NCBI GenBank assembly: GCA_900088475.1 | Contig: FLMG01000436.1 | Location: 3,792-46,788 of the forward strand | Direction: 5' to 3' | DNA length: 42,997 nucleotides | Origin: Hyphochytrium catenoides | Lineage: Eukaryota; Sar; Hyphochytriomycetes; Hyphochytriales; Hyphochytriaceae | In this document: piece after piece, positions 1,777-42,997 of the stretch | Numbering within the stretch: the stretch's first letter is position 1 | Layout: each line of letters opens with the position of its first letter | The notes under the pieces: generated by a model | Told to the model about the DNA's origin: nothing | Databases searched by the model: none | Seen by the model: only the letters and a program-made list of their open reading frames with translations | Translations under genes and position numbers: made by a program

Positions 1777-2170
1777 CGGTAACCCTGCTTGGCCATGGCA
1801 CGATATTTCATAGTCAAGCCACCGTTATCTATGGCGGGTAGGTTGGGGCCGTGGTGTCGCCCACAGGGGCATCATGAAAAGAGCTCAGCCAGAAGTCTTG
1901 CTTCCAACTCTTCGTAGCTGCCACACTGGACGCCCACAGAGGATGTTTCGGTAGAGGATTCTGTCCTCCTCGCATGTCTCTCTCAGATATTATGCTAGAC
2001 AAATGTCTACGACGTCCGTTGGCTGTCTAGTGTGGCCAAGAGGGAACCCAATGAGCAAATGTTTAAAAGCCATTGACAGACGGATCCTCTCGATCAAACA
2101 CTTTGTCATCATCATCCCAATAGGATAGAAGTCGTCTTGGTTGCCAGTTGGTGTCGGAAGGTAGACGTGT
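1777..2170 (-). pseudogene. Relic of the kinase-HECT-RZ gene with two internal deletions
   Basis: This block aligns colinearly with three separate pieces of the large minus-strand gene. About 1777-1875 matches the 3' end and last codons (parent about 7490-7587). About 1876-1928 matches parent about 7827-7880. About 1929-2165 matches parent about 8376-8613 in the HECT-like domain; for example 'acgcccacagaggatgtttc' occurs in both. The intervening parent sequence is missing, so two deletions removed the RZ-finger coding region and part of the HECT region. Small indels break every frame. It cannot make a protein and shows that a second copy of the gene once existed about 5.7 kb away. Confidence 0.85.
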
Positions 2171-2296: not shown

Positions 2297-4207
2297 CTAC
2301 CCTCTATCTCCCTGTGTTTCTTCTTCTATCTCTCCCTCCGTGTCTCTATCGTATTCAACAACTCTATCAGTCACGGACTCTACAAGCTTAAGACGCCTCC
2401 TCGGGCGCAGGTTCTGCCGTAGGTCCACAGCCTTGGTTACCTCTATGCTGCTTTTTATCAGGACGCAATCGTCAGGATGCCTGTAAGCAGAATAAATGAT
2501 GCGTATCATCAACACCACCATCGTCACTCCACGGTTCAAAGCAAAGCCGAGAAGAGGAAAACCCCATCGTGACACCTTCTCTACGCCGCCAGGGCTTTCA
2601 AGATCCACGAAGCCGGACATGAAGTCTACGCGATAGTTGCACATGTAGTTGAATCCCCTAAGGTACATCACGAGAAGGATTGCGGAGAAGTTTGCGCAAT
2701 GAAAGAGAAGAGTGTTCCGGATGCCCCTTCTGCCACGATGTGATAAGCTGTCATAAGAGACAAAGCATGACAGGATCCCCATGAATATGCTGAACATAGC
2801 AAAGAACCAGTGGATCGAAGAGCAGAAGCTGACAATGGCTGATAGTAGAAAGAGGACGGCCTGTATCAGGAGAAACCGTGTTTCAAACATCTGGAAATTC
2901 ACTGTCCAGATGGAGAAGTTCATCAGCGAGACCACTTGCAACAGGTATAATGCGGTGCACAGCGGATATATGCAGAATGCCCATATCTTCCTTGAGGTGG
3001 ATGAGAAGAAGCCCGTCTTTAGTCCAAGGACCCAACCAAAGGCGTAGCTCATAAGCACCGCAAGCCTGGCGAGAGGGACAAGGAAATGCTTCCATCTGTA
3101 CCATCTGCGTGCAAAGGAGTCTCCCAGGACAACCATCAGCAGTGTACGATGGCTTTCTTCAACGCTAAGAGGTTTGTGGTGATGGATAGCCACTAGGACC
3201 TTCAACTCATGAAGAGCGCTTTCATCAAGCCCTTCATCTAACACTCTGTTGTTGGAACACCAAGGTGACGATGGCCCTTGCAGCCCTACCTGCATGTCGT
3301 CACTGCTGAGCTCGATCATTCTTTGCCTACCATTCAGTAGCACGCAGTCCTTAGGATATCGGAAAGAGGAGAAGGCAATCCGGACCATAAGGAGTAGCAA
3401 GGTAGTGCCGCGGTTCAGGGCAAAAGTAGCAACAGAGAACCCCCAAAGTGATTGCGGCGGCCCCGCTTTGTCTCCCAAATCTCTGTTACCATCAACTAGT
3501 CCGTGGATGAAGTCCAATCGGTAGTCGCAGACGTTACTAAGACCTTGTTGACCATAGATGAGAATCAAGACTCCAAAGAGACCGACACAATGAAGCACCA
3601 AAGTATAGCGCAAGCCATGTCTAGTCCTCGGGGAGAACCCGTCATAGCCAAGAAAGCAAAAGCAGATGCCGCTGAACATGCCCAGAAGGTTGACGACAAT
3701 GTGCGGCTTGAAACAGAAATAGATGGTTGCCGATACCAAGTACAAGGTCGCCTCCACCAGGAGGTAGAAGGTGTGGAACATCCTAAAGCCGAGTGATAGA
3801 ATCTTGAAGTTGAGCAGAGACGCCAGGTGAAGCAGATACCAGGCGATACAGAACGGGCTAAGGATGGTCACAGACTTGAGGAAGAAGGATTGCTGGTCCG
3901 GAGTGAGGTACGACATCGGGAGACAGGAAAGCCACCAACAGATGTATGTCGCGCAGACGGAGATGTACGAGCCCGTCCGCGTTAATCGCTTACAGCCGTA
4001 CCACCATTTTGCAAAGGACTGACCGCAGACCTTGATTAGCAGTGTCGTGCGGCTTTCCTCCACGGTCAGATACGTCAAAGGATCGTGGGTTATAATGACC
4101 TTCGTAGTCCTTGCTAAGGTGGAAGCCGCGGGCACCACCTGAGTCGTCCGGAAAGGAACAGGTTTCGGACACCCGGCGGATCCTTTCAAAGTCGCGGCTT
4201 CCGCCAT
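2297..4207 (-). CDS. Polytopic membrane protein made of two homologous halves
   Basis: The frame encodes 636 residues from the first in-frame ATG (4207); it stays open upstream to 4261 but only with a GTG. The protein is an internal duplication. Residues about 38-292 and 338-587 each start with a 'VEES-RTLL' block followed by a W-rich segment 'SFA+(R/W)WY'. Each then has about six hydrophobic helices and ends with 'WGF...FALNRG(T/V)T', one last helix and 'YP/HP-(K/D)DCVL(L/I)'. That predicts about twelve membrane helices. The C-terminal tail is basic, then acidic. I do not recognise the family; it could be a transporter or receptor-like protein. The frame uses TAG as stop. An upstream exon cannot be excluded. 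The pseudogene relic lies just downstream of its 3' end. Confidence 0.75.
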   Translation of the reverse strand: MAEAATLKGSAGCPKPVPFRTTQVVPAASTLARTTKVIITHDPLTYLTVEESRTTLLIKVCGQSFAKWWYGCKRLTRTGSYISVCATYICWWLSCLPMSYLTPDQQSFFLKSVTILSPFCIAWYLLHLASLLNFKILSLGFRMFHTFYLLVEATLYLVSATIYFCFKPHIVVNLLGMFSGICFCFLGYDGFSPRTRHGLRYTLVLHCVGLFGVLILIYGQQGLSNVCDYRLDFIHGLVDGNRDLGDKAGPPQSLWGFSVATFALNRGTTLLLLMVRIAFSSFRYPKDCVLLNGRQRMIELSSDDMQVGLQGPSSPWCSNNRVLDEGLDESALHELKVLVAIHHHKPLSVEESHRTLLMVVLGDSFARRWYRWKHFLVPLARLAVLMSYAFGWVLGLKTGFFSSTSRKIWAFCIYPLCTALYLLQVVSLMNFSIWTVNFQMFETRFLLIQAVLFLLSAIVSFCSSIHWFFAMFSIFMGILSCFVSYDSLSHRGRRGIRNTLLFHCANFSAILLVMYLRGFNYMCNYRVDFMSGFVDLESPGGVEKVSRWGFPLLGFALNRGVTMVVLMIRIIYSAYRHPDDCVLIKSSIEVTKAVDLRQNLRPRRRLKLVESVTDRVVEYDRDTEGEIEEETQGDRG

Positions 4208-5319
4208 GGGACTCTTCCAGTGAATGACCTCTGCAATCAGCGATGGGGCTGGTGCTCTCACTCATCCTCTTCGTTCCTAATACTTTCCATCATCCCCGTC
4301 ATTACGAAGATGCTTTTCCTTTTGACAGCTCTCATGAGCCTCGTGTATGTCAGCTTCGCCGGCACCCACCCAAGCGCATAAGCGAGCTCCTCATCATAAG
4401 AAGGTCATCAAGTCAACAGATGCTCTCAGCAGCAGCAAAGAAGATGGAAACAGATAGCCATCCTTCTAGAGGAAAACGTGGTGTCTCTTATCCCTTCAGC
4501 CGGTTGATGTGCTGCTTGTTGCCGCGAAAGGAAGAACACGGCGGCGGCAGTGATGCTGAGCGGATGATGATCGGTGATGGGGCTCCAATGACGAGGGCGG
4601 CGGGCGCGCGGGCAGGCGGAGGGTGCTGAAGCTGTGAGGTGGTGGTTATATGACTAGACAGGCGCTGGCTGTGTGATGATGTGAGATGGGGAAAGCCCAC
4701 AGCTGTTGACCGTTACATGTACAGACTTATTGGTGTTTTCTACCACGAAAAACCCTCTAAATAAGTGCAGACATTTATTACAGAGCGTCTGTGGAGGTCT
4801 CATAGGCAGTCATTATAATAGGGAAGATGATTGATAGCCCTCAGAGCTTGATGATAGACAAGAGACGGCCAAGATTATTAGGATGATCATCAACGCTTGA
4901 GCCTCGGATGTCGCGGAGCTTGCCTGGCTCACTTGACTGCTTCTGGCCTGGTGTGAGGTCATGGACAGCCGCAGGCCAAGGAGGAGGACAGCCTTAGCGC
5001 TACTGTTAGAGACCTGGAAGTTATATTGTCTGCTGGAGAATGGCAGGCCATCATCAGTGCTGATCGTAAGCTACAGGTTATTCCTTTCTCCTCAACCCAA
5101 GGTACTTTTCCACAAGCTCCTTTGGCCACACCGCGACTAGCAGACTCGGTAGTAGTGTTGTTTGACGATACCTGAGCCGCTGGCGCCCTGCGTGCTGACA
5201 CTCCAGGAGAGGGAGCGGAGCCCAATATTTGAGCTTTACACTGAGCAAAACTATCTGGAATGACCAGAATAAATCTGCTCAGGAAACCCTGAGAGGACAC
5301 CCATCTCTTCTTTTCCTTT
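4208..5319. other. Intergenic region upstream of the duplicated membrane protein
   Basis: The region lies between the start of the minus-strand membrane gene and the first dispersed repeat. An open plus frame at 4243-4629 is low-complexity and overlaps the 5' end of the membrane gene. I see no recognisable protein, RNA gene or clear core promoter. It presumably contains the promoter of the membrane-protein gene. Confidence 0.4.
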
Positions 5320-6535
5320 GATGCTGCTGCCTATCGCAAGAGGACAACAAGCAGTCATATTTGCCACCCTTTGCAGGCTGTGGCTTCCTCTTGTCTCTTT
5401 CTCTTCTGAGAGAGAAGTAAGTCTCTTTCCCTCCCCCTCTCCTTCCCTCTCTCTCTCCCTCTTCTTCCCTCTCTCTCTCTTTCCTCTCTCTTCTCTGTCT
5501 CTCTGTCTCTCTCCCGACACAGTGCATGTCCCCAACAAGCCGTGCAACTGCGGCCCGTCTGTGGCCCGGGAGGAGAGAGAACAATGGGAGCCTCTCGCTC
5601 TCGTTTTGTCAGTGATTCATGTAGCTCTATCCAGATCCAAACTTCACCACGAGAGTAAGAATTGATACCGTGGTTATAGAGGAACGGCTACTTTCTCCAG
5701 AGAGCGTCATCGTCACCGAAGTTTTATCCCTCTCGCCCTATCGGCTGCTGTTCGTACCCTATTTCAGATGCGTTTCCAGCTCTGCGGCACTCTGATGTCT
5801 AGTGCTCGGTGGGAGAGGGCTTGCCTGTCATCCACTACTACGTAAAGGGTACTAAGCGGAGCACGCAAGTGTCATATGTTTGCGCTATGTGCTGACGTTC
5901 GTGGGACTCGTACCAACATTCCCTGGACGTTAACCTTGGCTGACAGTTTTGCATTACGTAGCAACTCTAAGAGCAGCAACAAGAGAAGTCGTGGGCGCTC
6001 TCGTCTTCTGTTACTGCACATCCTTGCCTCTTCTCCAGCTAACAGATCGTTAGAGATGCAATGTGGCCAGTAGTACCGCTTCTAATCGCTTACCCATCAC
6101 TTTGAGTTCTAGATAAGCATTCTCACATCAACCACGAGCCCGTCCGTGGTCAATACCTTATATCAAAGTGCGAGAACTTCGACGTCTAGGCTCTTCTACA
6201 TAGTTTGGCGGGATCCTGCTGGAAACTCTTGAGCGAAGAAAGCACCATATTGCAAAGTATCTCACTTCGTCCCTGGGTCCTTCTCGCCCATCATCGAAAC
6301 TCGCGGCGACTCGCAAGGAGGTTCTTACTGATCACTCACCTTCCATGGCAGAAAATCAACTTAGCTGGTACTTGTCTTTACTAGACCTTGCCTTTTCAGG
6401 AGGTCAAGGGCCCATATCTTAGTCTCTGACATTGCTCGTGCTAGGTTGGTCTCGTAGGAAAGTAGTTTTCACTTTTTTAGACCTTTGATGAGAAAGGGCC
6501 ATCGTCACCTTCCTCGCAATTATTGGTTCTTCCCT
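5320..6535 (+). repeat. Dispersed repeat, copy 1 (about 1.2 kb)
   Basis: This segment is colinear with 16080-17235 in the same orientation. Shared landmarks include 'ccctttgcaggctgtggctt' near 5370/16130, a CT-rich microsatellite, 'ggcccgggaggagagaga' near 5562/16276, and 'ctccagagagcgtcatcgtc' near 5696/16410. Further matches are the 'agcaactctaagagcagcaa' block near 5960/16680 and 'tctttactagaccttgcctt' near 6376/17068. Similarity looks high with scattered indels, and the CT tract differs in length. No coding capacity is visible. It is probably a non-autonomous mobile element or a decayed long terminal repeat; I could not define its ends. Confidence 0.85.
5418..5514. repeat. CT-rich microsatellite inside dispersed repeat copy 1
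   Basis: This is a run of CT, CCCT and TCTCTG motifs. The matching stretch at about 16163-16236 in copy 2 is shorter, so the tract has changed length since the copies separated. Confidence 0.8.
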
Positions 6536-7539: not shown

Positions 7540-10527
7540 CTATTGCGGGTAGGTTGGAGCTGTGGAGCCGTCTACAGGGGCATGGGTATTACCCTCAGTG
7601 ACCTTATGGCCCTGTCCTCCAATGTTCTGACCACACTCTGGGCAAGTGGACTTCTGCATTGGACCTCCACACTCCCCGACAGCGTACAAGTGCCCATCGG
7701 GACATCGGAACCAGCCGCCAGACCGGATCTCACCTCTCATCGCTGCCACCACCTGGGCCAACTCCTCTTGCGTGACTCGACTTCTTCTTTCGAAGGAAGT
7801 TTTCATGCACCCTTCCTCTCCTAGTAAGAGCTCGTCCCGTAGTCTTGCTTCGAACGCTTCGTAGCTGCCACACCGAGCAGGTAGTTGAATCAATTGAGAC
7901 TCTGAGAGAAAGTGCACGTTCTCGTCAACGCTAGGGACCACGAAGACCTGGTGAAATGAGGAGGAAAGATGCGTGACAAGATGGCCAAACGATCTGCAAA
8001 TCACCAGGCGCAGAGTAAGGTCAGACACGCGAGAGATCCACTCCATAAACCATCCCCGTAGCTTTTCCATGGCCATTCTATCAGCCCACGAGTCTTCGAT
8101 AAAAGTGATGCAGTCCTTGATCTCGGAGACATCCAAGTAATCGGTTCCAAAAAATAATAACTGAAGCTCCTTTCCAGTCATTGCGCCCACTTCTTCAGCT
8201 ACGTTGAGCTTCAAAAAACCCTCCTGAAGCTTCTCCAATGAGCCTTGGCGTTGCCTAACCAGCCTGTGCCATATTGCCTCGCATATGACGCTTGCTTTAT
8301 TCTCGTCCGTCACATTCTGTTCTGATAACGATCCCGTTAGCACCCCCACAGAGAAAGCATAATCTAGAGCATTCTGACGCCCACAGAGGATGTTTCGGTA
8401 GAGGATGGTGTCCTCCTCGCATGTCTCCAATAAATATGCTAGACAGATGTCTACGTCCGTTGGCTGTTTATTGTGGCCAAGAAGGAACCCCAACGAGGAA
8501 CTGTTGAGGGTGATTGGCAGGCGGATCCCCTCGATCAGACACTTTGCCATCATGGTCCCAATAGTATAGAAGTCGTCTTGGTTGCCAGTGGCTGTGGGTA
8601 GGTAAGCTTTGCCTGTTGCTACAGCTATCTCCTCCCCACTAGAAGGCTCGTCCCATATTGTCTGCGTAAACAGCCCGTACTTTGGTCTCAGTATCTCACT
8701 GAAAAACTTTTCCATCATCTCTGCTAAGGGTCTTCGAACGCCACCGTCAGTAAGGATCTGAACAGGGCTGTGGATATCAATGATGGTAGAAAAGGCCCTT
8801 AAGAGGCTTCGGCAAAGTGCCTCGCTTTCATCTTCTACGTCTGTGATAGCTAGTCTCAGCTGTGTGGCTGGTGCTCTCTTCCGACTATTTGCAAGGCTCC
8901 GCATGACCATTTTGACCTTGGCCACTGGATCGTACTTTGACGGTCGCCGCACCAGTAGCTCTTCCTGCAAGAGTTCTTGGGCTAGTAAGCGCTCTTCTGG
9001 CCTCAGACGTAGGAGCTGAGAGCAAATTCGTACATAGGCCTTCATATGTGCTTCTCGGAAGAAGTTACTGAGGATATTATAGTCGATGGCTGTAGGATCC
9101 ATAAAGGCTAGACCGACCGTTCCTCGGAACTTGTCCGGAAACGCCTTAGGCAGGACTGGCAGCAGCGGCTCCAGCATCATACAACCCAACGACCACATGT
9201 CCAGGGCAAACGGATGCTCTCGCCATGTCCCATCTTGAGCTTCGGGAGCTCCATAACCGAGTGTCAGGGCGCCATGTAAGGTCGTTGTCAGGGTGACTGC
9301 CTTATCGATGTCTAAGCTAATTCCAAAGTCACACAAAGCGATTCTAGCTGAATCACTCAACAGAATGTTTTCTGGCTTAAGATCTCGGTGCACGATGCCT
9401 TTGGCATGAATGTGTGCGAGAGCTTGAGCTATTTGATGGATAGTAGTTTGCAGCTGGAGCCACTCCTCGCCTTCTTCTGCAAAAGTATTGAACCGCTCTA
9501 CGTGGCTCTGCAGCCCTGTCACCCACCGCCGCAAGTTGCCCTTCTCATAGAACGGCATCTGAATATAAGTAATGGTCTCTGGGTCGTTAATGTCAAGAAA
9601 GATACGCCTAATAGGGACCACGAGGGGATGCTTGAGATTGCATAACCGCTCAGCTTCTTTCCTGAACCCCTTCCGTCCAAGCAACTTCTTGATGACACAG
9701 AGTTGGCCATCGCGATCCTTCATAACCTGCACGTTCGGACCTAAGTTACCGACCTCGACAGGCTCATAGTCCCTAATAGTGACACTTAAGTCCAGCGCCT
9801 TTGCTGCAAGTCCAGAGGGCAAGGCGCCAGCCACAGAGAGGGACTTCGGGTCGTCTGATAGAAGCTCCGGAAAGTGCTCAGGCACCCTCTTGTCTGACAG
9901 AATACTAGCAAGTTTGGCAGCCCGCTCCTGAAGTCCTTTCAAAGCATATTCTTTCTCTTTTTTCACTTCTTGGAGCTTCAATGCTCTTTGAGCATCATCC
10001 TCTTCCGCAATTTCAATCTCGGTGTTGAGCCGCTTGATATCGTTGCGCAGTGGCTATGCTTGAGACTCAAGCTCCGCTCTCTCGGCTTTAGCCTTTGCTG
10101 CTCTGATGCCCAGATATTCTATGTCTTTCCATAGTTGGATGTTCTTCTCAAGCTCCAAGATGTCGGCACTGCGCTTTGGTTGGGCTACCTGGGAAAGAAA
10201 AGATTCCGATGACGCTATCTCCCGAAGCCTGAGAAAGTATGAATCCATCCTCTGATGCATGGCCCTGAGACGGCTCTGGAAAGAAGTTCTCATCTCTTCT
10301 AACTCTTTTTGGAGCTGTGAATGTGTGGCCACTGTTCCCGCCATCTCCTGCAACTCAGGCAGGGCTAGAAGGACTTTATACCATGTCGTCTTCTTCAGCT
10401 TTGGCTGCTTGCTCTGCCAGAGGGTAAACTGTTTGTCAAGAGATTGCCACCTATCCATGCTCGGAATGTAGTTGTCAGCCAGCTCGTTCAGCAGCTGATC
10501 AAGCAGCTGCTTGACATTGTGTTGCCC
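7540..10527 (-). CDS. Exon 2: coiled coil, protein kinase, HECT-like domain and RZ zinc finger
   Basis: The exon encodes 995 codon positions, including one TAG at 10056-10054. The kinase shows 'CVIKK' (ATP lysine), 'KEAERL' (helix C glutamate), 'IVHRDLKPENILL' (catalytic loop), 'CDFGIS' (metal-binding), 'GYGAPE' and 'DMWSLGCMMLE', so it looks active. Next is a HECT-like domain. Its N-lobe has 'GGVRRP', 'PKYGLF' and 'GTMMAKCLIEGIRLP'; its C-lobe has 'ELQLLFFGTDYLDVSEIKDC' and 'FMEWISRVSDL'. At the place of the HECT catalytic Cys I align Glu (codon 7902-7900, in 'FLSESQLIQLP'); the nearest Cys is about ten residues later. The C-terminus 'WFRCPDGHLYAVGECGGP', followed by 'CPECGQNIGG', is a complete RZ finger of the RNF213/ZNFX1 type. 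The stop is TAG at 7542-7540. Confidence 0.85.
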
Positions 10528-13398
10528 CTGATCATAGCAGCGTTAGCCTAGCAGGAACTACTACATAATTTATCAGACAATGGCACACGCTACCTTCTGA
10601 GCAGATAGTGATGGAGGTAGAACCATAGAGGCCGTGGCAGCCAGAACGTGATTCTTGATATTCTTACGCAACTCATAGCTGTTTTCGCCCGCTCTCAGTA
10701 AGCTCAGCTGCTCTTCAAAGCTGCTAAGCAGCTGGCTCCGCTTTTCGTTCCGAATACTTACTTTACTCCCATCGCTAGGATCCTTCTTAGCTTCTGCAGA
10801 TAGTCGCTTCACATCTTGAGTCAGCGCTAATGTTCTCTTGCTCCCCTGTTGCGCCTTAAGTTCATTACCCTCCAAGCGATCAAGAAGATCTCCGGTACCA
10901 TCTAATGTCTCTGATAAGTGAAGCTTAACACATAGCTTTTCAATAGCCGTGAGGACGGGCTTATGCACCTTATCAGACAGGTGGAGCCCTATAGTACGCT
11001 TCATGATGTCTTGGAATATTTGATCTGGACGAAGGCTCTCAATTACCTCCGCCGTCTCCACGTCTGGCTCCACCGTAGCCCCTCCTGCACTTATGCGTTG
11101 CGGTGGGCTAGCCTGTTTGCCCGCTGCCCTGTTGTTCTCTTGCTGATCTATGTCACGCCATACCACTGCTAAGCTTTGAATCAAATCGCTGTGACCCTTC
11201 AGTATCTTCACACATTCTTTCGAGTCCAGGTCCCAGATAGAGATCGAGTTGGCGCCGGATCCCGAGATGACCGTCTTACAATCTAGCGAGACTATGACCG
11301 TGTACACACGGCCTCCACTTCCTAAGAGTGTAGCCTTGCAAGCCCCAGTGGTGAGGTCCCATACCCGAATGGTCTTATCCCAGGAGCCTGAGATTATAGT
11401 GGTGCAGTCCTGTGAGATGGTGACGCTGCGGACGGTATCAGTATGACCTCGGAGAACGTGCAAACAATGCCCGGAGTGTGTGTCCCAGACTCTAATTGTC
11501 CTATCTCTAGAACCGGACACCGCCGTCTGACCATTCAAAGAGATAGCCACGCTATAGATAATGTTCCTATGACCATGTAAGGGTGTCACGCACGCCTGGA
11601 GGTCTAGATCCCAAACACGAACTGTCTTGTCTCCAGACCCAGAAACCACCTTCTTGCCGTTGACAGAGGCAGCGACGCTGTAAACTATCCCTTGATGGCC
11701 TTCCAAAATTATTATGCACCTTCGTGACTCCAGATCCCACACCCAGATTGTTCCATCGTAACAACCTGAGATCAGCTGTCTGCCATCCGGAGATATGACG
11801 ACGCAGACGACTCCAGTGTTATGTCCTTGTAGGGTCTTCACACAGGATCCGGATTGAAGATCAAAGCATCTAACTTCCTTTCCTGTGGAGTTGGAGGCCA
11901 CTAGCTTCCCATCAGGAGAGACTGACACATTTCCAGCCATATCGCTTTGTCCCTGTAAGGTCTTCAGGCACACTCCAGAAACGAAATCCCAGACGCGAAT
12001 GGTCTTATCCCATGATCCTGAGACTATCGTGGCTCCACGTAGTTGCAATTCAGCTCCACTCTCTTTGAAAGTGTTTGAAGCAGTAGCAAGATTGAGGCCA
12101 TCGATATCTATGAAAGCAGCAGAAGCGATAGAGAAGGTAGTATTAGAAACGCTAGGCCTAACTGCTTCACAAGCGGGGCATTCCCTTTGGTGTGCGTTAT
12201 TCCCGCACAGACAGAGCGTGCACTGCCAATCCTCCTTACTCCTCACAAGGGGCGTTGACAGACCCAGCGTTGATTTATCCGATTCAGCGTCAGTGCTCGA
12301 AGGAGCTGTAGGAAGCGGTGCGGGTCTGGGCTCTGAGGCGACTAGTGCCTTAGTGGCAGTATCAAACAGCAATGTAGGCATAACTACTGCGTCCTTTAGT
12401 GTTGGCTTACGAGGTGCCTGAAATCCGCTCATCGCGACGCTCTCGACAGATGTGCTGTGACCTTCCAGGACCTTCACACACACCTCAGACTTCAAATCCC
12501 ATATCCGGAGGGTCTTATCCTTAGATCCAGAGACCAGACTTCCACCATCGGGCGAGATAGCTATGGTCCAAACCTCCAGAGTGTGCCCTAGCAAGGTCCT
12601 CATACAGACGCCGGAGTCCAGGTCCCAGACGCGGATCGTCATGTCCATAGAGCCCGAAAGCACTTTTGTTCCATCTGGCGAGATAGCCACAGCGGAGACT
12701 GTCTCCGTATGCCCTTCTAGAGTTTTCAAGGAGATCCCAGAGGCCAAATCCCATATGCGCCCTGTCTTATCTACGGAGCCTGAAACCACCTTTGTCCCAT
12801 CAGGCGATATGGCAAGGGTCCAAACCGTTAGGCTATGTCCTTGCAGAGTCTTCACGCAGGCTCCAGCCTCAAGATCCCAGAGACGGATCGTACTGTCCAA
12901 CGAACCTGAGACAAGCGTCTTTCCATCTGGGGAGATAGTCACGACACGGACGATCTTAGAATGCCCGAGCAGCGTTTTCAAACAAATCCCTGACTCCAAA
13001 TCCCAAACACATATTCCGTCATCTCCAGAGGCAGTCACCACTCTTTTGCCATCAGGTGATATAGCGACGCTGCGGACACCGGTGGTACGGCCCTGCAGCG
13101 TTCTAAGGCATGCACCAGAACTCAACTCCCAGACACGTATTGTCTCGTCCCAGGAGCCGGAAACTACCTTCTTACCATCATTCGAAATAGCGACGCTACT
13201 CACAAACTCAGAATGGCCTTGCAGGATCCTCAGGCAGACCCCAGTGAGCACATCCCAGACTCGGATTTCACCATCTTCAGAGCCCGACACCACTATCAGG
13301 CCTCCATCGTCTTGGTGGCGCGACCCCTTCTCCGTCAGTGCACCACCGGTGGTCCCTACCTTCTCTTCCTCTCGACCAAGATGCTCGTCAGCTTGCAT
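7540..13398 (-). CDS. Giant WD40-zinc finger-WD40-coiled coil-kinase-HECT-RZ protein, interrupted by one TAG
   Basis: I read this as one gene of two exons. Exon 1 runs 13398..10594 and exon 2 runs 10527..7540. They join in phase 0 across a 66-nt GT-AG intron, giving about 1,930 codons. Domain order by position: seven WD40 repeats (13299-12442), a RanBP2-type zinc finger (12231-12157), seven more WD40 repeats (12033-11176), a helical region (11124-10594), and a coiled coil (10458-9890). Then follow a protein kinase (9753-8947), a HECT-like domain (8829-7792) and an RZ-type zinc finger (7718-7606). A single TAG at 10056-10054 interrupts the coiled coil. No in-frame ATG lies between that TAG and the kinase glycine-loop region, so the kinase half has no obvious start of its own. 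This supports one gene that carries a nonsense mutation, a sequence error or a read-through site. The likely setting is intracellular signalling or ubiquitin transfer. The start at 13398 is the first in-frame ATG; the frame is open further upstream. Confidence 0.75.
7606..7718 (-). other. RZ-type zinc finger domain
   Basis: The segment 'GGWFRCPDGHLYAVGECGG' plus 'CPECGQNIGGQGH' has the conserved Cys, GH, GECGG and CPxC-xxIGG pattern of the RZ finger. In vertebrate RNF213 this finger is needed for ubiquitylation of bacterial lipopolysaccharide. Here it is the last folded element, followed by about 20 disordered residues. Confidence 0.85.
10054..10056 (-). other. In-frame TAG splitting the coiled coil from the kinase
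   Basis: The minus-strand reading is '...LESQA-stop-PLRNDIKRLN...', with coiled-coil sequence in the same frame on both sides. No splice donor/acceptor pair that would remove it is evident nearby. Many single-base changes would give a sense codon; CAG to TAG is the simplest. Confidence 0.85.
10528..10593 (-). other. 66-nt phase-0 intron joining the WD40 and kinase parts
   Basis: Read on the minus strand, the donor is 'AGAAG|GTAGCG' and the acceptor is 'GATCAG|GGGCAA'. Removing bases 10593-10528 joins a complete AAG codon to a complete GGG codon. The downstream reading, beginning 'GQHNVKQLLDQLLNEL', then runs in frame into the coiled coil. The retained sequence would stop after five codons. 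Both intron length and splice signals suit a compact protist intron. Confidence 0.8.
10594..13398 (-). CDS. Exon 1: two seven-bladed WD40 propellers with a RanBP2 zinc finger between
   Basis: The exon encodes 935 residues from the ATG at 13398. I count fourteen WD40 units by their 'IRVWD'-like ends, seven before and seven after an insert of about 130 residues (about 12423-12034). The insert carries 'DWQCTLCLCGNN' and 'CPACEAVRP', with C-x2-C-x10-C-x2-C spacing and the Trp and Asn of a RanBP2-type finger; such fingers often bind ubiquitin or RNA. The units are very alike, for example 'VAISPDGKRVV' and 'SGSWDKTIRVWD', as in fungal and cyanobacterial WD40 proteins that evolve by unit exchange. 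After the second propeller comes a charged, mostly helical segment without a known family. If the intron is not spliced the frame adds five residues and stops at 10573. Confidence 0.88.
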
Positions 13399-16079: not shown

Positions 16080-17235
16080 CCGAAGTCCGATACCCATCGC
16101 AAGAGGGCAACGAGCCGTCATATTTGCGACCCTTTGCAGGCTGTGGCTTCCTCTTGTGTGTGTGTCTCTCTCTCTTCTCTCAGAGAAGTAAAGTCTCTTT
16201 CCCTCTTCTCTGTCTCTCTGTCTCTCTCAATACAGTGGATGTCCCCGAGCCGTGCAACTGTCTCTCCGTCTCTCTGTGGCCCGGGAGGAGAGAGACCAAT
16301 GGGAGCCTCTCGCTCTCGTTTGTCAGCGATTCATGAGCTCTATCGCAGATCCATACTTCACCACGAGAGTAAGAATTGCTACCGTGGTTATAAAGGAACG
16401 GCTGCTTTCTCCAGAGAGCGTCATCGTCACTGGAATTTCATCCTTCTCGCCCTATTGGCTGCTGTTCGTACCCTATTTCAAAATACCTTTCCAGCTCTGC
16501 GGCACTTTGATGTCTTCTAGTGCTCGGTGGAAGAGGGCTTGCCTGTCATCCACTACTACGTACTGGCTACTACGTAGAGCACCGGGGCAAGTGTCATAGG
16601 TTTGCGCTATGTGCTGACGTTCGTGGGACTCGTACCACATTGCCTGAAGGTTAACCTTGGCTGACAGTTTTACATTACGTAGCAACTCTAAGAGCAGCAA
16701 CAAGAGAAGTCGTGGGCGCTCTCATGTTCTGTTCCTGCACATCCTTGCCTCTTCTTCTCCAGCTAACAGATCGTTAGAGATGCAATGTGGCCAGTAGTAC
16801 CGCTTCTGATCGCTTTCCTTTCGCGTGAATTTTGGATAGCACACCTCAGATCAACTACGACTCGTCCGTGAATCCACCTCAAAGCTCCGCTACATAGTCT
16901 GGTGGGCCGAGCTCTTGAGAGGAGAAACCACCATATTGCGCAAGCTATGGCACACTATTCCACCTCGTCCCTGGGTCCTCGCCCATCGATTGTCGCCTCA
17001 CCTCGCCAGGAGGTTCTTACTGAGCACTCACCTTCGATGGCAGAAAATTAACTTAGCAGGTACTCATCTTTACTAGACCTTGCCTTTTCAGAAGTATCAA
17101 GGCCAAGATCTTAGTCTCTGCCCTTGCTCGTGCCAACTTGGTCTCGTATTAGGAAAGTAGCTCTCATTTTTTTAGACCCTCGATGGGAAGAAAGGGCCAT
17201 CGTCACCCTCCTCGCAGTTATTGGTTCTTCAGTGC
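16080..17235 (+). repeat. Dispersed repeat, copy 2 (about 1.2 kb)
   Basis: This is the partner of 5320-6535 and is colinear almost throughout. The best stretch, 16600-16810 against 5860-6075, includes the words 'gaagtcgtgggcgctctc' and 'cagatcgttagagatgcaat'. The open frames here are not shared between copies, which argues against a protein-coding role. Confidence 0.85.
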
Positions 17236-28777: not shown

Positions 28778-31170
28778 ATGAAGCTGCAATCCCTTCTCCT
28801 AGCAGCTTTTAGCTGCTTCCTTGCGGCTGCGGAAGCCGCGCGAGTGGATCGTTGCACTGTCCCAAACTTTATCGCTCCCACCTACGATGACGGGCCAGCA
28901 GCTGGCACCACGCCCACGCTTCTGGACACCCTGATCAAGGAAAAAGCAAAGCTAACGTTCTTTGTGGTTGGCCAGATGTTAGATAGTGCTGAGGGTAAAG
29001 AAATCCTAAAGAAGATGGACGCCGATGGCCAGCACATTGCAATGCACTCTCACACCCACCAAGATATCGACAAGATGACCAGGGAACAGATAGCAGAGGA
29101 GGTCAAGCAGAACAGTGACAGAGTCAACCATGTTATCAACAAGCGCCCAAGGTTCTTCCGCTGCCCATTCGGCTCCTGTGGACCCGAGAAAGTGGCTATT
29201 TTGGAGTCGCTGGGCCTGAGAGTGATTCACTGGAGCGATGACGCGGGTTAGTAGCAGAGCGACAGCCACTGCACCCGTTGATCGCTTTTCTTCTGAGGCT
29301 CGTCCTTTGTTCCTTTTTTCAGTATTCTGGCTGTTCTACTTCATATGCCCAGTCTCTGCCTAGTCGTGTACTTTGCCCTCTCTCACTTGTCATACTGACC
29401 CTTACTTTGGCCTCTTCCCCTTACCCGCCAGGTGACACTAATGACTGGAGGCCCGAGAACGCCAACAAGGTAGCGAACGTGGTCAACACGTACAGGAAGG
29501 CATTGGACGACCCCAACGTCAGCATCTTCCTGCAGCACGACCTATACAGCTGGTCAGTGCAGGCGGCTAAGGAATTCATTCCGCTTATCAGATCTAAGGG
29601 AAAAGTCGTGGCAACCGTACCGGAATGTTTGGGAGACTCGAAGCTGTACTACACAGAGGCCGAGTGGACAGCTATCCTCCAGCAGTTCCAAGGAGGAGTC
29701 GCAGCCCCTACACCTTCCCTTACTCCAGCTCCTCGGCCTGTAACTGTTGCACCAGTAGCACCTACACCGGCTCCAGTTGCACCTACACCGGCTCCAGTTG
29801 CACCTACACCGGCTCCAGTTGCACCTACACCGCCTCCAGAGGCTCCCACACTAGCTCCTGTGGCGCCAACATCAGCGCCTGGGGCTCCTAGCCCTGAGTC
29901 CCCTCCTGCCACCACGCAGCCAGCGGCTACGGGGGCACCGCAAGTTCCGACTTTGGCCCCGATCGAGGCTCCTAACACGCCAGCACCTGGACCCAGCGAG
30001 AGTCCTTCCGCTACCCCCTCTCCCAACTCTGAAGCCCCTGCACCTGGCTCTCAGTCTCCCCCTATTTTGACACCGATCACGGACAGTCCTTACTATCCTC
30101 CAGCAGCACCAAGTGAGCTTCCTACCAGCTCCACACCGACATCCGCTCCAGCCACAGGAGGAGAGACGTCCGCCCCACCTGCCTCACAGCTCCCTACTTT
30201 AGCTCCGATGGAGCCATCCACTGAGGCGCCTCCGATTGGAGAGCAAACTCCTCCACCTTCCTCTCAGTCTCCTCCAGTGGTGACTCCAATCACTGACTCT
30301 CCTAACTATCCTCCGACATCACCAAGTGAGCTGCCTGCAACCTCATCGCCCACCAGTTCTCCAACCACAGGCGCGGAGACCCCTGCCCCCAGTGCTTCGG
30401 AGATTCCTACTCTCGCGCCTATGGAACCACCAGCAGTCACCCCCACTGCAGGAGGAAGCGAGACTCCTGCCCCTGGTTCGCAACAGCCAACCTCAAGTCC
30501 CGCAGCAGCTCCCACCACAGCTCCCAGCGGGGATCTAGTGCAAGACCCCACTCTGCCGCCTGCGACTCCATCTCAAGCTCCGGGTTCAGCTCCTCCTGTT
30601 ACGGAGACCCCTGCTGCTCCCACTAACACCCCTCCTGCATCTACTGAGACCCCTGCTGTTCCCGTTCCCTCATCTTCGGCACCCGCACCCCAGGAGCAAT
30701 GTGGTGCCGCACAGAACAACGTTGACTACTTTGGCAATGACCTCAAGTCGACCAGAAGGAAGAGATCATCGGACTGCTGCGCTGACTGCCTTCAGACTCA
30801 AGGCTGCGAGGGCTATGTGTGGACCAAGTACAGAGGAGGGACCTGCTGGCTCAAGAGCAGTCTTTCCTCTCGGCGGACATGGAGCTACGGTGCTGTCTCC
30901 GCCGCTGTAATAGCTTCTCCAAGCGGTGACTCCTCCACCCCACCAGCTGAGGGATGCACAAAAATGGAGAGAGGCATTGACTATTTTGGAGACGACATCG
31001 GGAATGCTCGTGCGCCAAGAGCGAAAGACTGCTACGACCTTTGCAGAAAGAAGAAAGGTTGCACTGCCTTTGCCTGGAATTCCTACCGAGGAGGGACCTG
31101 CTGGCTAAAGAACGGCACCGGGAAGCGGAAGTACGACTCCAGCGTTACCTCTGGCACTGTTTGTCTCTAA
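28778..31170 (+). CDS. Secreted CE4 polysaccharide (chitin) deacetylase with twin PAN/apple domains
   Basis: Exons 28778..29246 and 29432..31170 give 735 residues. The signal peptide is 'MKLQSLLLAAFSCFLAAAEA'. The catalytic domain has all five CE4 motifs: 'TYDDGP' (residues 35-40; catalytic-base and metal Asp), 'HSHTH' (90-94; metal His), 'RFFRCPFGSCG' (125-135), 'DTNDW' (158-162) and 'FLQHD' (189-193). The enzyme would remove acetyl groups from chitin or a related N-acetylglucosamine polymer outside the cell. A Pro/Thr/Ala/Ser linker of about 330 residues (29700-30690) follows. Two PAN modules end the protein (30694-30915 and 30949-31167), each with 'DYFG(N/D)D' and 'YRGGTCWLK'; oomycete CBEL-type proteins use such modules to bind polysaccharide. 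There is no C-terminal membrane anchor. It is convergent with the surface-protein gene at 32664-33827. Confidence 0.9.
29247..29431 (+). other. 185-nt phase-1 intron of the deacetylase gene
   Basis: The donor is 'gcgg|gttagt' and the acceptor 'cccgccag|gtgaca', with a possible branch site 'tactgac' near 29394-29400. Splicing restores motif 4 ('DTNDW') of the catalytic domain in frame. Without splicing the frame stops at 29251. Confidence 0.9.
29755..29840 (+). repeat. 21-bp tandem repeat coding 'APTPAPV' in the linker
   Basis: Nearly identical 21-bp units (core 'gcacctacaccggctccagt') encode Ala-Pro-Thr-Pro repeats, the expected pattern for an O-glycosylated spacer. Confidence 0.9.
30052..30440 (+). 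repeat. 213-bp duplicated block in the linker
   Basis: The block from 30052 (starting 'SQSPPILTPITDSP') recurs from 30265 ('SQSPPVVTPITDSP') with a period of 213 nt (71 codons), and both copies end in 'PTLAPMEP'. The linker grew by in-frame duplication. Confidence 0.85.
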
Positions 31171-40301: not shown

Positions 40302-41107
40302 TTAGAGCGTGAGTTCCGGAAAGACGGTCTGCGATGAGCGTTCTGCTCGAGTTCCCAGCACTTCTCTGAAGGATGGCTGGGACTTCCGAAAAATGGGCAC
40401 TCCGGCCATTGGTCGCGAACTTATAATATTTGATGATGATGATGACCCTGGATGAGCCTTGTTCTTGGTCTCTTGATGACGGTGACGATGGGGTTCCTTT
40501 ATCCTTTGTTGATGTAGAGAGTATGCTGCAAAGCCTTCTTCTTCATCATAACTCTTGTTGCTAGTGCGAATAGCACCTCTTCGGTGTTGTTCTCCGATAA
40601 GAATATCATCTATGGCACTTGCACATAGTGCGCCCGTTCCACGCACTTGAATAGCTTGAGCAATAATACCTTCATATGACGGTGGAAGGGCCATAAGTAC
40701 TGCGACTTTGTAGAGGTTGTCGTAGAAAAAATCTTTCTCCTCCATCATTTCGCGAAGTAAATCAAGCTTTCTTCTCTGCTCGCACAGGAATAGGCTAATG
40801 TCTTGTTCTTCGGCTACGTTTGCCGATAAGAAAGAGGTAAGAGTAGTCACAATGATGTTGTTTGCGCTTCGGCTCTCAAAAGATTCTTCCAACTTCAGCC
40901 AAGCTTCTCTCGCAGTTCCTATAATACGAGGTAGAAGTGGAATAAGGTTGTCAGCCACTGCCAAATCTTGTTGAACGGCCTTTTGTCATTCCTTAGCCAA
41001 GAAGACTGCGGCGTAGCCCTAGACGTAGACATGGGCTTGTTCTTTGAGGAGATATCAGGGGATCCTTGGCTCCCGTCAACATGATGAAGAAGGTTCAGTT
41101 CATCCAA
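40302..41107 (-). pseudogene. Copia gag (UBN2-type) remnant
   Basis: The long frame (40964-40302) contains 'AREAWLKLEESFESRSANNI', 'LFLCEQRRKLDLLREMMEE' and 'ALPPSYEGIIAQAIQVRG', the usual Copia gag pattern (AW-x-LEE-x(Y/F)ESKS, LPPSYE). The N-terminal part is in another frame (41107-40919), so a frameshift near 40970 breaks it. No CCHC knuckle was seen downstream. Confidence 0.8.
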
Positions 41108-41618
41108 GATAGGCCTCCATCTTCAATCGTCAAACAGGGTAGTCCTCCATCCCTTGTAGCTTTAATATCGTAACCAGGAAAGAGCTCATTATGCTGATGA
41201 TTCTGAGGGTTTGAAATAGGTCTTGATGATAAGAATGGAAAGAGAAATGGAGAATATGAGACTTTGTGTCCGTAGGATTTGGTGTTCTTCCTGCCTTGAT
41301 AAATGAGACGATATCTTCAGAACGAAGCGGTTTCAGAAGAAAATAATGGCACCAATGAACTCAGCGATGCCGATTTACCCCCTCTCACTCTTTGAAGCCG
41401 AAAAGAGGTGATTTTGGGCCGAAATCGTGCTTGAAACTTTCCCTTTGCAAAAGTACTCGTATGGTGAAATTTTCGCTACAGGGTTGACACTTTACCAAAA
41501 TTTTGAGTGAAAACTTTTCAATGTTTCAACCCTTTGTAGTATAGTGAAGGAGACTTGTGTGAAGTCACGGAAACTGGTGACTGCCATGATGTGGTTCAGG
41601 AGACTTGGGAGCAGACAG

Positions 41619-41934
41619 TGTTATAATATATGGGATTTGAAGACACTCTTATTTAGGTTATGTGGTCTACTGATATGCTCAGAGTGAGTATGAAGAGCTT
41701 ATGGGACAGCGTTTCCTAGTTATCACGTTGTCTAGTTGTTCTGGAGAGTAACTGTGTCTCGTATAAACTACTAGACCCAGTTACTACTTCTTGACGTCAG
41801 ATGATGACTTACCTGGTAATAATAACCTAGTTATCATAACTTTGAAACACTTTCTTTTGTGCCTTCTTCCTCTTGTCAGATAGAGTCTGGAACTGTGAGC
41901 CTTTTAGAGCTCTTGTCAGCTTCTGCTCTCAACA
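41619..41934 (-). repeat. LTR of a Copia-type element (316 bp)
   Basis: On the plus strand it begins 'tgttataatatatgggattt' and ends 'cttctgctctcaaca'. Next to it is the polypurine tract of the pol region to the right, complement of 'cctccccgcagg' (41935-41946), so it is the 3' LTR of that element. The same LTR lies upstream of the gag remnant on the minus strand and could also have served as its 5' LTR. Confidence 0.75.
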
Positions 41935-42997
41935 CCTCCCCGCAGGTCCAGACTTCCTGAGTGTCCGGCGGTCTCCGCCTTGTCCTCCCCGGAAAGTAGA
42001 CTTTGTCTTACGACGGATGTGTGTGGACGGGACAATTCCGAGTTGCGGAAGAAGTTCTCGGAAATGAGGTGCTGGTAACGCCTTGGTGAGAATGTCGGCA
42101 GTCATCTTCTTGGTTGGACAGTGTTGCAATTCCAAGACTTTGCGATTCACCTGATCTCTAACCACACAGTGTTCGACATCAATATATTTCGATTTTGGTC
42201 TCGGCATCTCGCACACTGTTATTGTGCTCTTGTTGTCTTGATGTGCGAGGATAATGGGTCTACTCAGAGGATACTGAAGCTCCTGTAAGAAATAAGAGAT
42301 GTGTTCTGCATGTTTGGCTCCGGTCCACAGTGAGATGCACTCAGCTTCAGTGGTTGAAGAAGCCACTATGTCTTGCTTCTTAGCCTTCCAACTAAAAGCA
42401 CCAGTCCCCAGTGTAAGAAAGTAGCCTGAGATGGATTTCCTGTCCATAAGATCATTCGCCCAGGATGCGTCTGCAAAGAGTTGTAGTCTTGGACTCTGAT
42501 TGATGATGTCTGGGGTTCTTCTCCTCCTAGACATAAGAAATGGTCTGCTGCAATCCCTTTCACTTATCTCAGTATCCGCTTCACAGCGGTCCAGTGAGTC
42601 TGTCTATAGTTAGTCATATTATGCTGGCTAACCGATTGTACCGCGAAGGCTATATTCGGCCTGGAGGCTACCATCAGATGCATAAGACTGCCAACAGCAT
42701 TCCTGTACGGTATCTTGAAAATATTGCTCCTCTTCAGAAGTCAGCGTAGAAAGAGAGTCTGCCTTGGGTAGCTTTTCACCAGGAGTAACAGGCGTGCTGA
42801 TTGGGTTACAATCTTCCATGCCATAACGCTTCAGAAGGTCGTGAATAAATCTTCGTTGGCGAAGGTAGATTTTCCGATTCTTTCGATCCTAATAACTTCT
42901 ACCCCTAGGAAGTATTGGAGTTCTCCTAAGTCCTTCACATCAATTCTGTCCTTTAGAAGTCCTTTAACTTGATCCGCACGATTGTTGCTTGGCGCGA
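41929..42997 (-). pseudogene. Copia reverse transcriptase end and RNase H (frameshifted, cut by the window edge)
   Basis: Minus-strand frames read 'VKDLGELQYFLGVEV', 'FIHDLLKRYGMEDCNPISTP', 'SRPNIAFAVQSVSQ' and 'HWTAVKRILR', the C-terminal reverse transcriptase blocks, spread over at least three frames. The RNase H part (42534-41929) is open and has 'LQLFADASWANDLMDRKSIS' and 'SWKAKKQDIVASSTTEAE', with 'HQDNKS' and 'DVEHCVVRDQV' further on. The element continues beyond the window. Confidence 0.85.
41935..41946 (-). promoter_or_regulatory. Polypurine tract next to the 3' LTR
   Basis: The minus-strand word 'cctgcggggagg' immediately precedes the LTR, the expected plus-strand primer site of an LTR retrotransposon. 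Confidence 0.6.

Follow-up and report, generated by a model that had tools for sequence, protein, structure and literature searches.

The window, a stretch of 42,997 nucleotides from Hyphochytrium catenoides (assembly GCA_900088475.1, contig FLMG01000436.1, forward-strand positions 3,792 to 46,788), carries on its minus strand a proposed gene (13398–7540; ATG at 13398, stop codon TAG at 7542–7540) whose product would combine WD40 propellers with a protein kinase, a HECT-like domain and an RZ finger. The kinase–HECT–RZ (KHR) core of this gene was found in nine further proteins and almost certainly represents a real conserved family. The residues retained across the family suggest that the RZ finger, rather than the HECT-like domain, is probably the ubiquitin carrier.

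The KHR core and its relatives

Three open reading frames (ORFs) share one minus-strand frame: ORF1 (13398–10573), ORF2 (10542–10054) and ORF3 (10053–7540). Read together, they give seven WD40 units, a RanBP2-like finger, a further seven WD40 units, a linker, the kinase, the HECT-like domain and the RZ finger, in that order. Relatives were searched for with ORF3 residues 60–837; the 8000 candidates sharing the most words were scored, of which 542 passed and 120 were listed. Among the matches listed, four relatives with both kinase and HECT scored 727, 609, 543 and 354 bits against 104 for the next, and three of the four also carried an RZ finger. A second search with the HECT-RZ part of the relative P0004 (7998 candidates scored) returned ten hits, six of them labelled Mesvir1, including the query, and the rest helicase-type RZ proteins. 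The five additional Mesvir1 proteins scored 391–854 bits, each with kinase, HECT and RZ. The label Mesvir1 was taken to denote Mesostigma viride, a streptophyte green alga.

The nine relatives thus comprise three proteins from metagenome collections (P0001–P0003), 43–45 % identical to the window, and the six Mesvir1 proteins; over the whole core, the relatives were 30–46 % identical to the window. The order kinase, HECT, RZ was observed in the window and in eight of the nine. P0002 ends before the RZ finger, and P0003 lacks the kinase N-lobe. Two peptide patterns each were run against viral contigs and against one genome per prokaryote species, giving 124 and 53 matches, none of which was confirmed by tblastn. 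An NCBIfam scan of three proteins gave only matches below the cut-off. A search of the open-paper literature did not find the KHR architecture described, a statement that extends to these searches alone.

The domains preceding the core differed among the relatives. P0130 showed ankyrin repeats together with clathrin linker and propeller matches, P0131 and P0132 carried USP7_ICP0_bdg and USP7_C2, and P0004, P0128 and P0129 had no recognised front domain. A WD40 or RanBP2 match was found in none of the nine. In the tree, a branch with support of 100/100 separated the window and P0001–P0003 from the six Mesvir1 members; among the latter, P0004, P0128 and P0129 grouped together (100/99), and P0130 was joined by P0131 and P0132 (support 91/95, short of the starred level). 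Because the Mesvir1 members group in this way and yet differ in their front ends, a change of front ends within a single species is probable, provided that the gene models are right. The earlier note on this DNA had anticipated that all of the domains would co-occur in relatives; the kinase–HECT–RZ core does recur as a unit with varying front ends, but WD40 units joined to the core were seen in none of the relatives found. No AAA domain was present among the Pfam matches listed (25 of 54 for ORF1), and no NACHT or NB-ARC NTPase was present among these or among the listed matches of the relatives.

The RZ finger and the HECT-like domain

All features of the gene lie on the minus strand. The RZ finger (7582–7743; PF20173, 1.6e-21) matched Pfam at 76.1 bits against a cut-off of 27. 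In RNF213, PMC12075652 assigns C4451, H4455, C4471 and C4474 of the RZ finger to zinc binding, names C4462 the nucleophile and regards H4483 as the likely base. Aligned to these, the window has C784, H788, C804 and C807 at the zinc positions, C795 at that of the nucleophile and H816 at that of the likely base, with identical spacings of +4, +7, +9, +3 and +9. All six positions were kept in each of the nine RZ-bearing members, and the call of an RNF213-type RZ finger in the earlier note is thereby borne out at every active-site position. Compared between the two sets, the RZ finger was also the best conserved: its identity was 58 %, while the kinase reached 33–36 %, the HECT N-lobe part 27 % and the C-lobe-like stretch 24 %. 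A search of solved structures with the HECT-RZ profile listed 56 sequences, comprising nine RNF213 chains, which match through the RZ finger (best E 8.6e-10), and 47 HECT chains; NEDD4L came first among these at 7.5e-8, and the top chains of NEDD4L, UBR5 and HUWE1 had E-values of 7.5e-8 to 1.1e-6.

The HECT N-lobe-like domain (8020–8703; PF00632, 1e-15, profile positions 4–228 of 306) matched at 58.6 bits against a cut-off of 23.9, and the match ends before the part that bears the catalytic cysteine. Across the ten proteins, the Pfam HECT matches end at profile positions 205–259 of 306. In the C-lobe-like stretch that follows (7783–8019), the place of the catalytic cysteine is occupied by Glu718 (7900–7902). 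The corresponding column held Glu in seven rows, Asp in two, a gap in one and Cys in none of the ten; it was placed on account of a shared L-x-L-P, which is preceded by the TC motif. In this genome, HTCFNRIDLP and HTCFFSIDLP stand at the catalytic site of two ordinary HECT genes. According to PMC4327156, HECTs require the catalytic site at the C-terminus; in KHR proteins, an RZ finger and a tail follow the HECT-like domain. The two ubiquitin-transfer modules envisaged in the earlier note are therefore not supported on the HECT side, the catalytic Cys being found in none of the ten rows (one of them a gap).

That the RZ finger carries the ubiquitin has to be weighed against two alternatives, and two points count against it. 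The C-lobe alignment on which the loss of the cysteine depends was obtained with MAFFT and a weak global hhalign (probability 40 %) as read by the authors, and the local profile alignment stops short of the place of the HECT cysteine. In addition, C728, 10 residues beyond Glu718, is kept in nine of the ten rows, at two or six residues beyond (L/M)-P, and is a possible displaced nucleophile. The HECT-like domain could then be catalytic through C728, with the RZ finger assisting or acting as second carrier in a two-module E3, and the one member without C728, P0001, may itself be inactive because it also has NFG in place of DFG in the kinase. We nonetheless consider this improbable: C728 lies C-terminal and not N-terminal to the L-x-L-P found behind the catalytic TC of ordinary HECTs, and is 10 residues out of place, while recognisable HECT similarity ends at 205–259 of 306 in the Pfam matches of all ten proteins and no further than profile position 290 in the 47 listed HECT chains, with E718 at about 308. 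It is about equally doubtful that the HECT-RZ part is no E3 at all and only binds ubiquitin or nucleic acid, targeting the kinase. The B-box of CYLD offers a precedent, as a zinc finger in an E3-like protein that was found to be inactive (PMC13061254), but the six catalytic and zinc positions of KHR have been kept across a split that leaves the HECT part only 27 % identical. The RZ finger thus remains the probable carrier, as judged from these retained residues.

The kinase and the WD40–RanBP2 front end

The protein kinase domain (8959–9750; PF00069, 5.6e-33) matched Pfam at 114.9 bits, above the curated cut-off. The residues K122, E133, HRD (222–224), N229, DFG (242–244) and APE (269–271) are present (ORF3 numbering), and a canonical GxGxxG glycine loop was not seen by eye in the window kinase or in the rows of the family alignment. 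Variants were observed in the metagenome relatives, with NFG for DFG in P0001, APD in P0002 and the missing N-lobe in P0003.

Ahead of the linker, WD40 (PF00400) matched at 427.9 bits over 12 stretches, above the curated cut-off, and a hand-made motif list gave 14 units: seven in propeller 1 (12424–13299) and seven in propeller 2 (11167–12033), on either side of the finger, as the earlier note had described. The RanBP2-type zinc finger between them (12151–12237; PF00641, E 7.1e-6) scored 25.6 bits, just under the cut-off of 27, and what we take to be the pattern of this finger, W-x-C-x2-C-x3-N-x6-C-x2-C, is intact in the window. Profile searches thus placed Pkinase, HECT, RZ and WD40 over their Pfam cut-offs, as had been proposed as a check, but left the RanBP2 finger below and the HECT match partial. 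The WD40 units had also been described as near-identical, which they are not: their mean amino acid identity was 41 % and that of the best pair 62 %, in a comparison in which one of the 14 was shifted by a single residue. Near-identical repeats under concerted evolution were rejected on these figures.

One gene or two

The reading as a single protein was upheld in so far as all parts lie in the same minus-strand frame, but this frame is interrupted by five stops and one further TAG. All five stops, which lie between ORF1 and ORF2 (codons at 10575 to 10543), fall within a 66-base GT-AG stretch (10593–10528), the removal of which restores the frame exactly and gives a gene of 1930 codons. The proposed intron (10528–10593, phase 0) reads AAG/GTAGCG ... 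GCTAACGC ... GATCAG/GGG and has the motif GCTAAC close to its 3′ border. For comparison, distances of 47–64 bases separated neighbouring exon matches in five pairs from the TCP-1 genes of this genome, and other pairs lay 133–175 bases apart; one candidate donor AAG/GTAGGG was present in these genes, with GT and AG borders assigned by eye (minus-strand loci being unreadable in this way).

ORF1 continues for 191 residues after its final WD40 unit, and this tail forms the first part of the linker (10594–11166). Compared with a hidden Markov model (HMM) of the six Mesvir1 linkers, the tail gave a weak match to the linker start, N-terminal and in the order expected. As good a score was reached by 103 of 5000 shuffles, and by 14 of 5000 at a colinear position (any score was obtained with 4729 of the 5000, and the 40-residue tolerance for colinearity was chosen after the match had been seen). 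In an earlier run, 36 of 2000 shuffles were as good. The second part of the linker, in ORF2 (10057–10527), has coding-like codon use, and a weak local hhalign match of the linker to the Mesvir1 linkers (E 0.007, probability 5 %) runs across the TAG.

On these observations, the WD40 part and the core are probably one gene by origin, and a single transcript spliced at the 66-base intron is the likely product. A number of results weigh against this. A search with the 1952-residue reading returned seven proteins, all with helicase-type Pfam domains and RZ, and no WD40-KHR relative, although the reach of this search was limited, since P0004, whose length was in range, was not returned. The match of the ORF1 tail to P0004 by itself was equalled by 113 of 1000 shuffles and is not significant. 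For ORF2 alone, no significant match was obtained either to P0004 (807 of 1000) or to the HMM (483 of 1910 scored shuffles), and a global hhalign of the linker failed. Codon use also failed to mark the proposed intron, whose 17 scored codons averaged 0.266 in frame.

The alternative is that two neighbouring genes are present, one encoding WD40–RanBP2–WD40 (ORF1) and a separate one encoding linker, kinase, HECT and RZ (ORF2 with ORF3, or ORF3 alone). The second protein would then resemble P0004, P0128 and P0129 of Mesvir1 in having no recognised N-terminal domain, and P0001 begins with Met, seven residues ahead of the position that an alignment by eye pairs with the TAG of the window. The failure of the protein searches to find a WD40-KHR relative would be explained as well, and a search of the linker against its own genome gave a single match, to itself, and hence no second copy that could decide the matter. 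Two genes are nevertheless unlikely in our assessment: the gap between ORF1 and ORF2 consists of nothing but the 66-base stretch with its intron signals, leaving little room for a promoter, and the 191-residue tail of ORF1 scores as coding and matches the start of the linker, weakly but in order.

The in-frame TAG and the state of the locus

A plain reading of the gene is halted by the TAG at 10056 (10054–10056, codon 1093), for which an alignment by eye gives K in P0001. The 44 codons before the TAG scored 0.170 per codon, as coding, whereas the two alternative frames gave −0.119 and −0.167; reference pieces of 44 codons gave 0.088 ± 0.085 when in frame and −0.103 ± 0.087 otherwise. Linker, kinase and HECT scored 0.085–0.120 in frame and negative out of frame, whereas the WD40 part (−0.005) and the RZ end (−0.001) were near zero in frame, yet above their other frames. 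The measure is a rough one, in which the proposed intron reads high and the WD40 part and RZ end read near zero. A second intron (10188–10054, 135 bases, ending in the TAG) was considered and set aside because the stretch has a coding score and is spanned by the weak match to the Mesvir1 linkers. We take the TAG to be a stop inside an exon, whether a recent lesion, an assembly error or a site of read-through, and the window copy may have been recently disabled.

It is possible, although we lean the other way, that the whole locus is a pseudogene or near-pseudogene in decay, with the TAG as its first hit, and that it would join two other fragments of the family in this genome. One of these is a decayed, incomplete copy of the gene's 3′ end (1797–2163, minus strand; HECT, C-lobe and tail pieces), 83.9 % identical in nucleotides over the 236 bases of its best piece, with substitutions spread evenly over the codon positions (7, 8 and 9, counted from a gappy alignment with a doubtful end). 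The other is a HECT-RZ remnant with shifted frames and altered RZ positions on contig C1042 (L032; 3001–3755, minus strand), beside which no kinase or WD40 match was found within the 9900 bases read. The gene of the window itself, in contrast, has a single stop in 1930 codons; its linker, kinase and HECT score as coding in frame; all of the kinase and RZ key residues tabulated are present; and the TAG may owe its existence to an assembly error or be read through.

A direct repeat of about 1.2 kb, with 82–84 % identity between its copies, flanks the gene (5330–6532 and 16093–17230, plus strand). A search of the same genome, in which very common words were skipped, found no further long copy and only a 161-base match on contig C681.

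Other features of the window

A 654-amino-acid ORF (2297–4261, minus strand) without a Pfam match appeared by eye to consist of two similar membrane-protein halves. A proline-rich ORF (29242–31170, plus strand) ends in two PAN-domain stretches. The region 40302–42603 (minus strand) likely holds the remains of a Copia-type retrotransposon, with a gag-like ORF at 25.7 bits (cut-off 27) and an ORF that has no Pfam match and is RNase H-like by eye.

A possible mechanism

Taken together, the domains suggest, with slightly better than even confidence, that the KHR gene encodes an intracellular switch composed of sensor propellers, a kinase, a HECT-like E2 dock and an RZ carrier. The two WD40 propellers and the RanBP2 finger would recognise a ligand, and the long linker would relay the signal. 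The kinase, whose active-site residues are observed, could then phosphorylate itself or a partner. The HECT N-lobe-like domain, homologous by sequence, would dock the charged E2, and Cys795 of the RZ finger, by analogy with the chemistry of RNF213, would take the ubiquitin in place of the lost HECT cysteine and pass it to a target, presumably with His816 as base, again as in RNF213.

The earlier note had proposed a sensor and E3-type effector, possibly in defence. Sensor-like modules do adjoin a kinase and an E3-type module, but the part concerning defence is inference only. That the protein is a sensor for defence or quality control, and not a constitutive enzyme, is conceivable, if somewhat short of an even prospect. 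A fast-changing sensor family would fit because front ends appear to have been exchanged and two family copies have decayed, which does not thereby prove defence. More speculatively, and rather unlikely at present, KHR may form a third class of RZ ligase, in which HECT chemistry has been lost and the domain now serves as an E2 dock, in a kinase-gated, NLR-like receptor with exchangeable sensors and perhaps with non-protein targets, as in RNF213.

If true, protists and a streptophyte alga would possess an NLR-like receptor, for immunity or quality control, that links recognition to both phosphorylation and ubiquitylation. An RZ finger joined to a HECT scaffold without its cysteine would show the active site of an E3 moving between domains, and the HECT-RZ part, at about 430 residues, would be a much smaller object than RNF213 for RZ chemistry. 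Exchange of front ends within one alga would indicate a sensor family outside the NLR mould.

Comparison with known systems

The fungal HNWD and plant NLR-type receptors join a conserved effector core to exchangeable sensor modules and undergo gene birth and decay. The core-plus-sensor logic of KHR resembles theirs, but KHR is without a STAND NTPase among the matches listed and its WD40 units are not near-identical. With the HECT E3s NEDD4L, UBR5 and HUWE1, KHR shares the N-lobe, recognised by profile search, whereas the catalytic C-lobe end is unrecognised, its cysteine is replaced by Glu or Asp, and an RZ finger lies downstream.

Two further RZ ORFs were noted in the same genome. A long one on contig C1029 (L034; 3471–9335, plus strand) is RNF213-like by eye, and its RZ finger seems by eye to be without the zinc His and the base His; one of 2240 amino acids on contig C889 (L033; 1475–8197, plus strand) is ZNFX1-like by eye. 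Two marker checks on this genome, both weak, lent no support to a stramenopile origin: a chlorophyll-binding protein was not matched, although heterotrophs would not have one in any case, and the single TPI gene found is separate from GAPDH, in an assembly that may be incomplete.

A 2025 work by Grabarczyk reportedly terms ZNFX1 a split-site E3 in its title, and we know of no kinase or HECT domain in ZNFX1. It shares with KHR the RZ finger with its Cys/His dyad, and PMC12075652 describes it as an RNA helicase with the same zinc finger, bearing this dyad, in its C-terminal region. For RNF213, an immune E3 in which the RZ finger is catalytic, this paper describes an AAA core, a CTD that docks the E2 and an RZ finger that carries the ubiquitin. 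RNF213 agrees with the RZ finger of the window in zinc ligands, nucleophile, base and their spacing; where it has the AAA core and the CTD, KHR has a HECT-like partner and a kinase, with no AAA among the matches listed.

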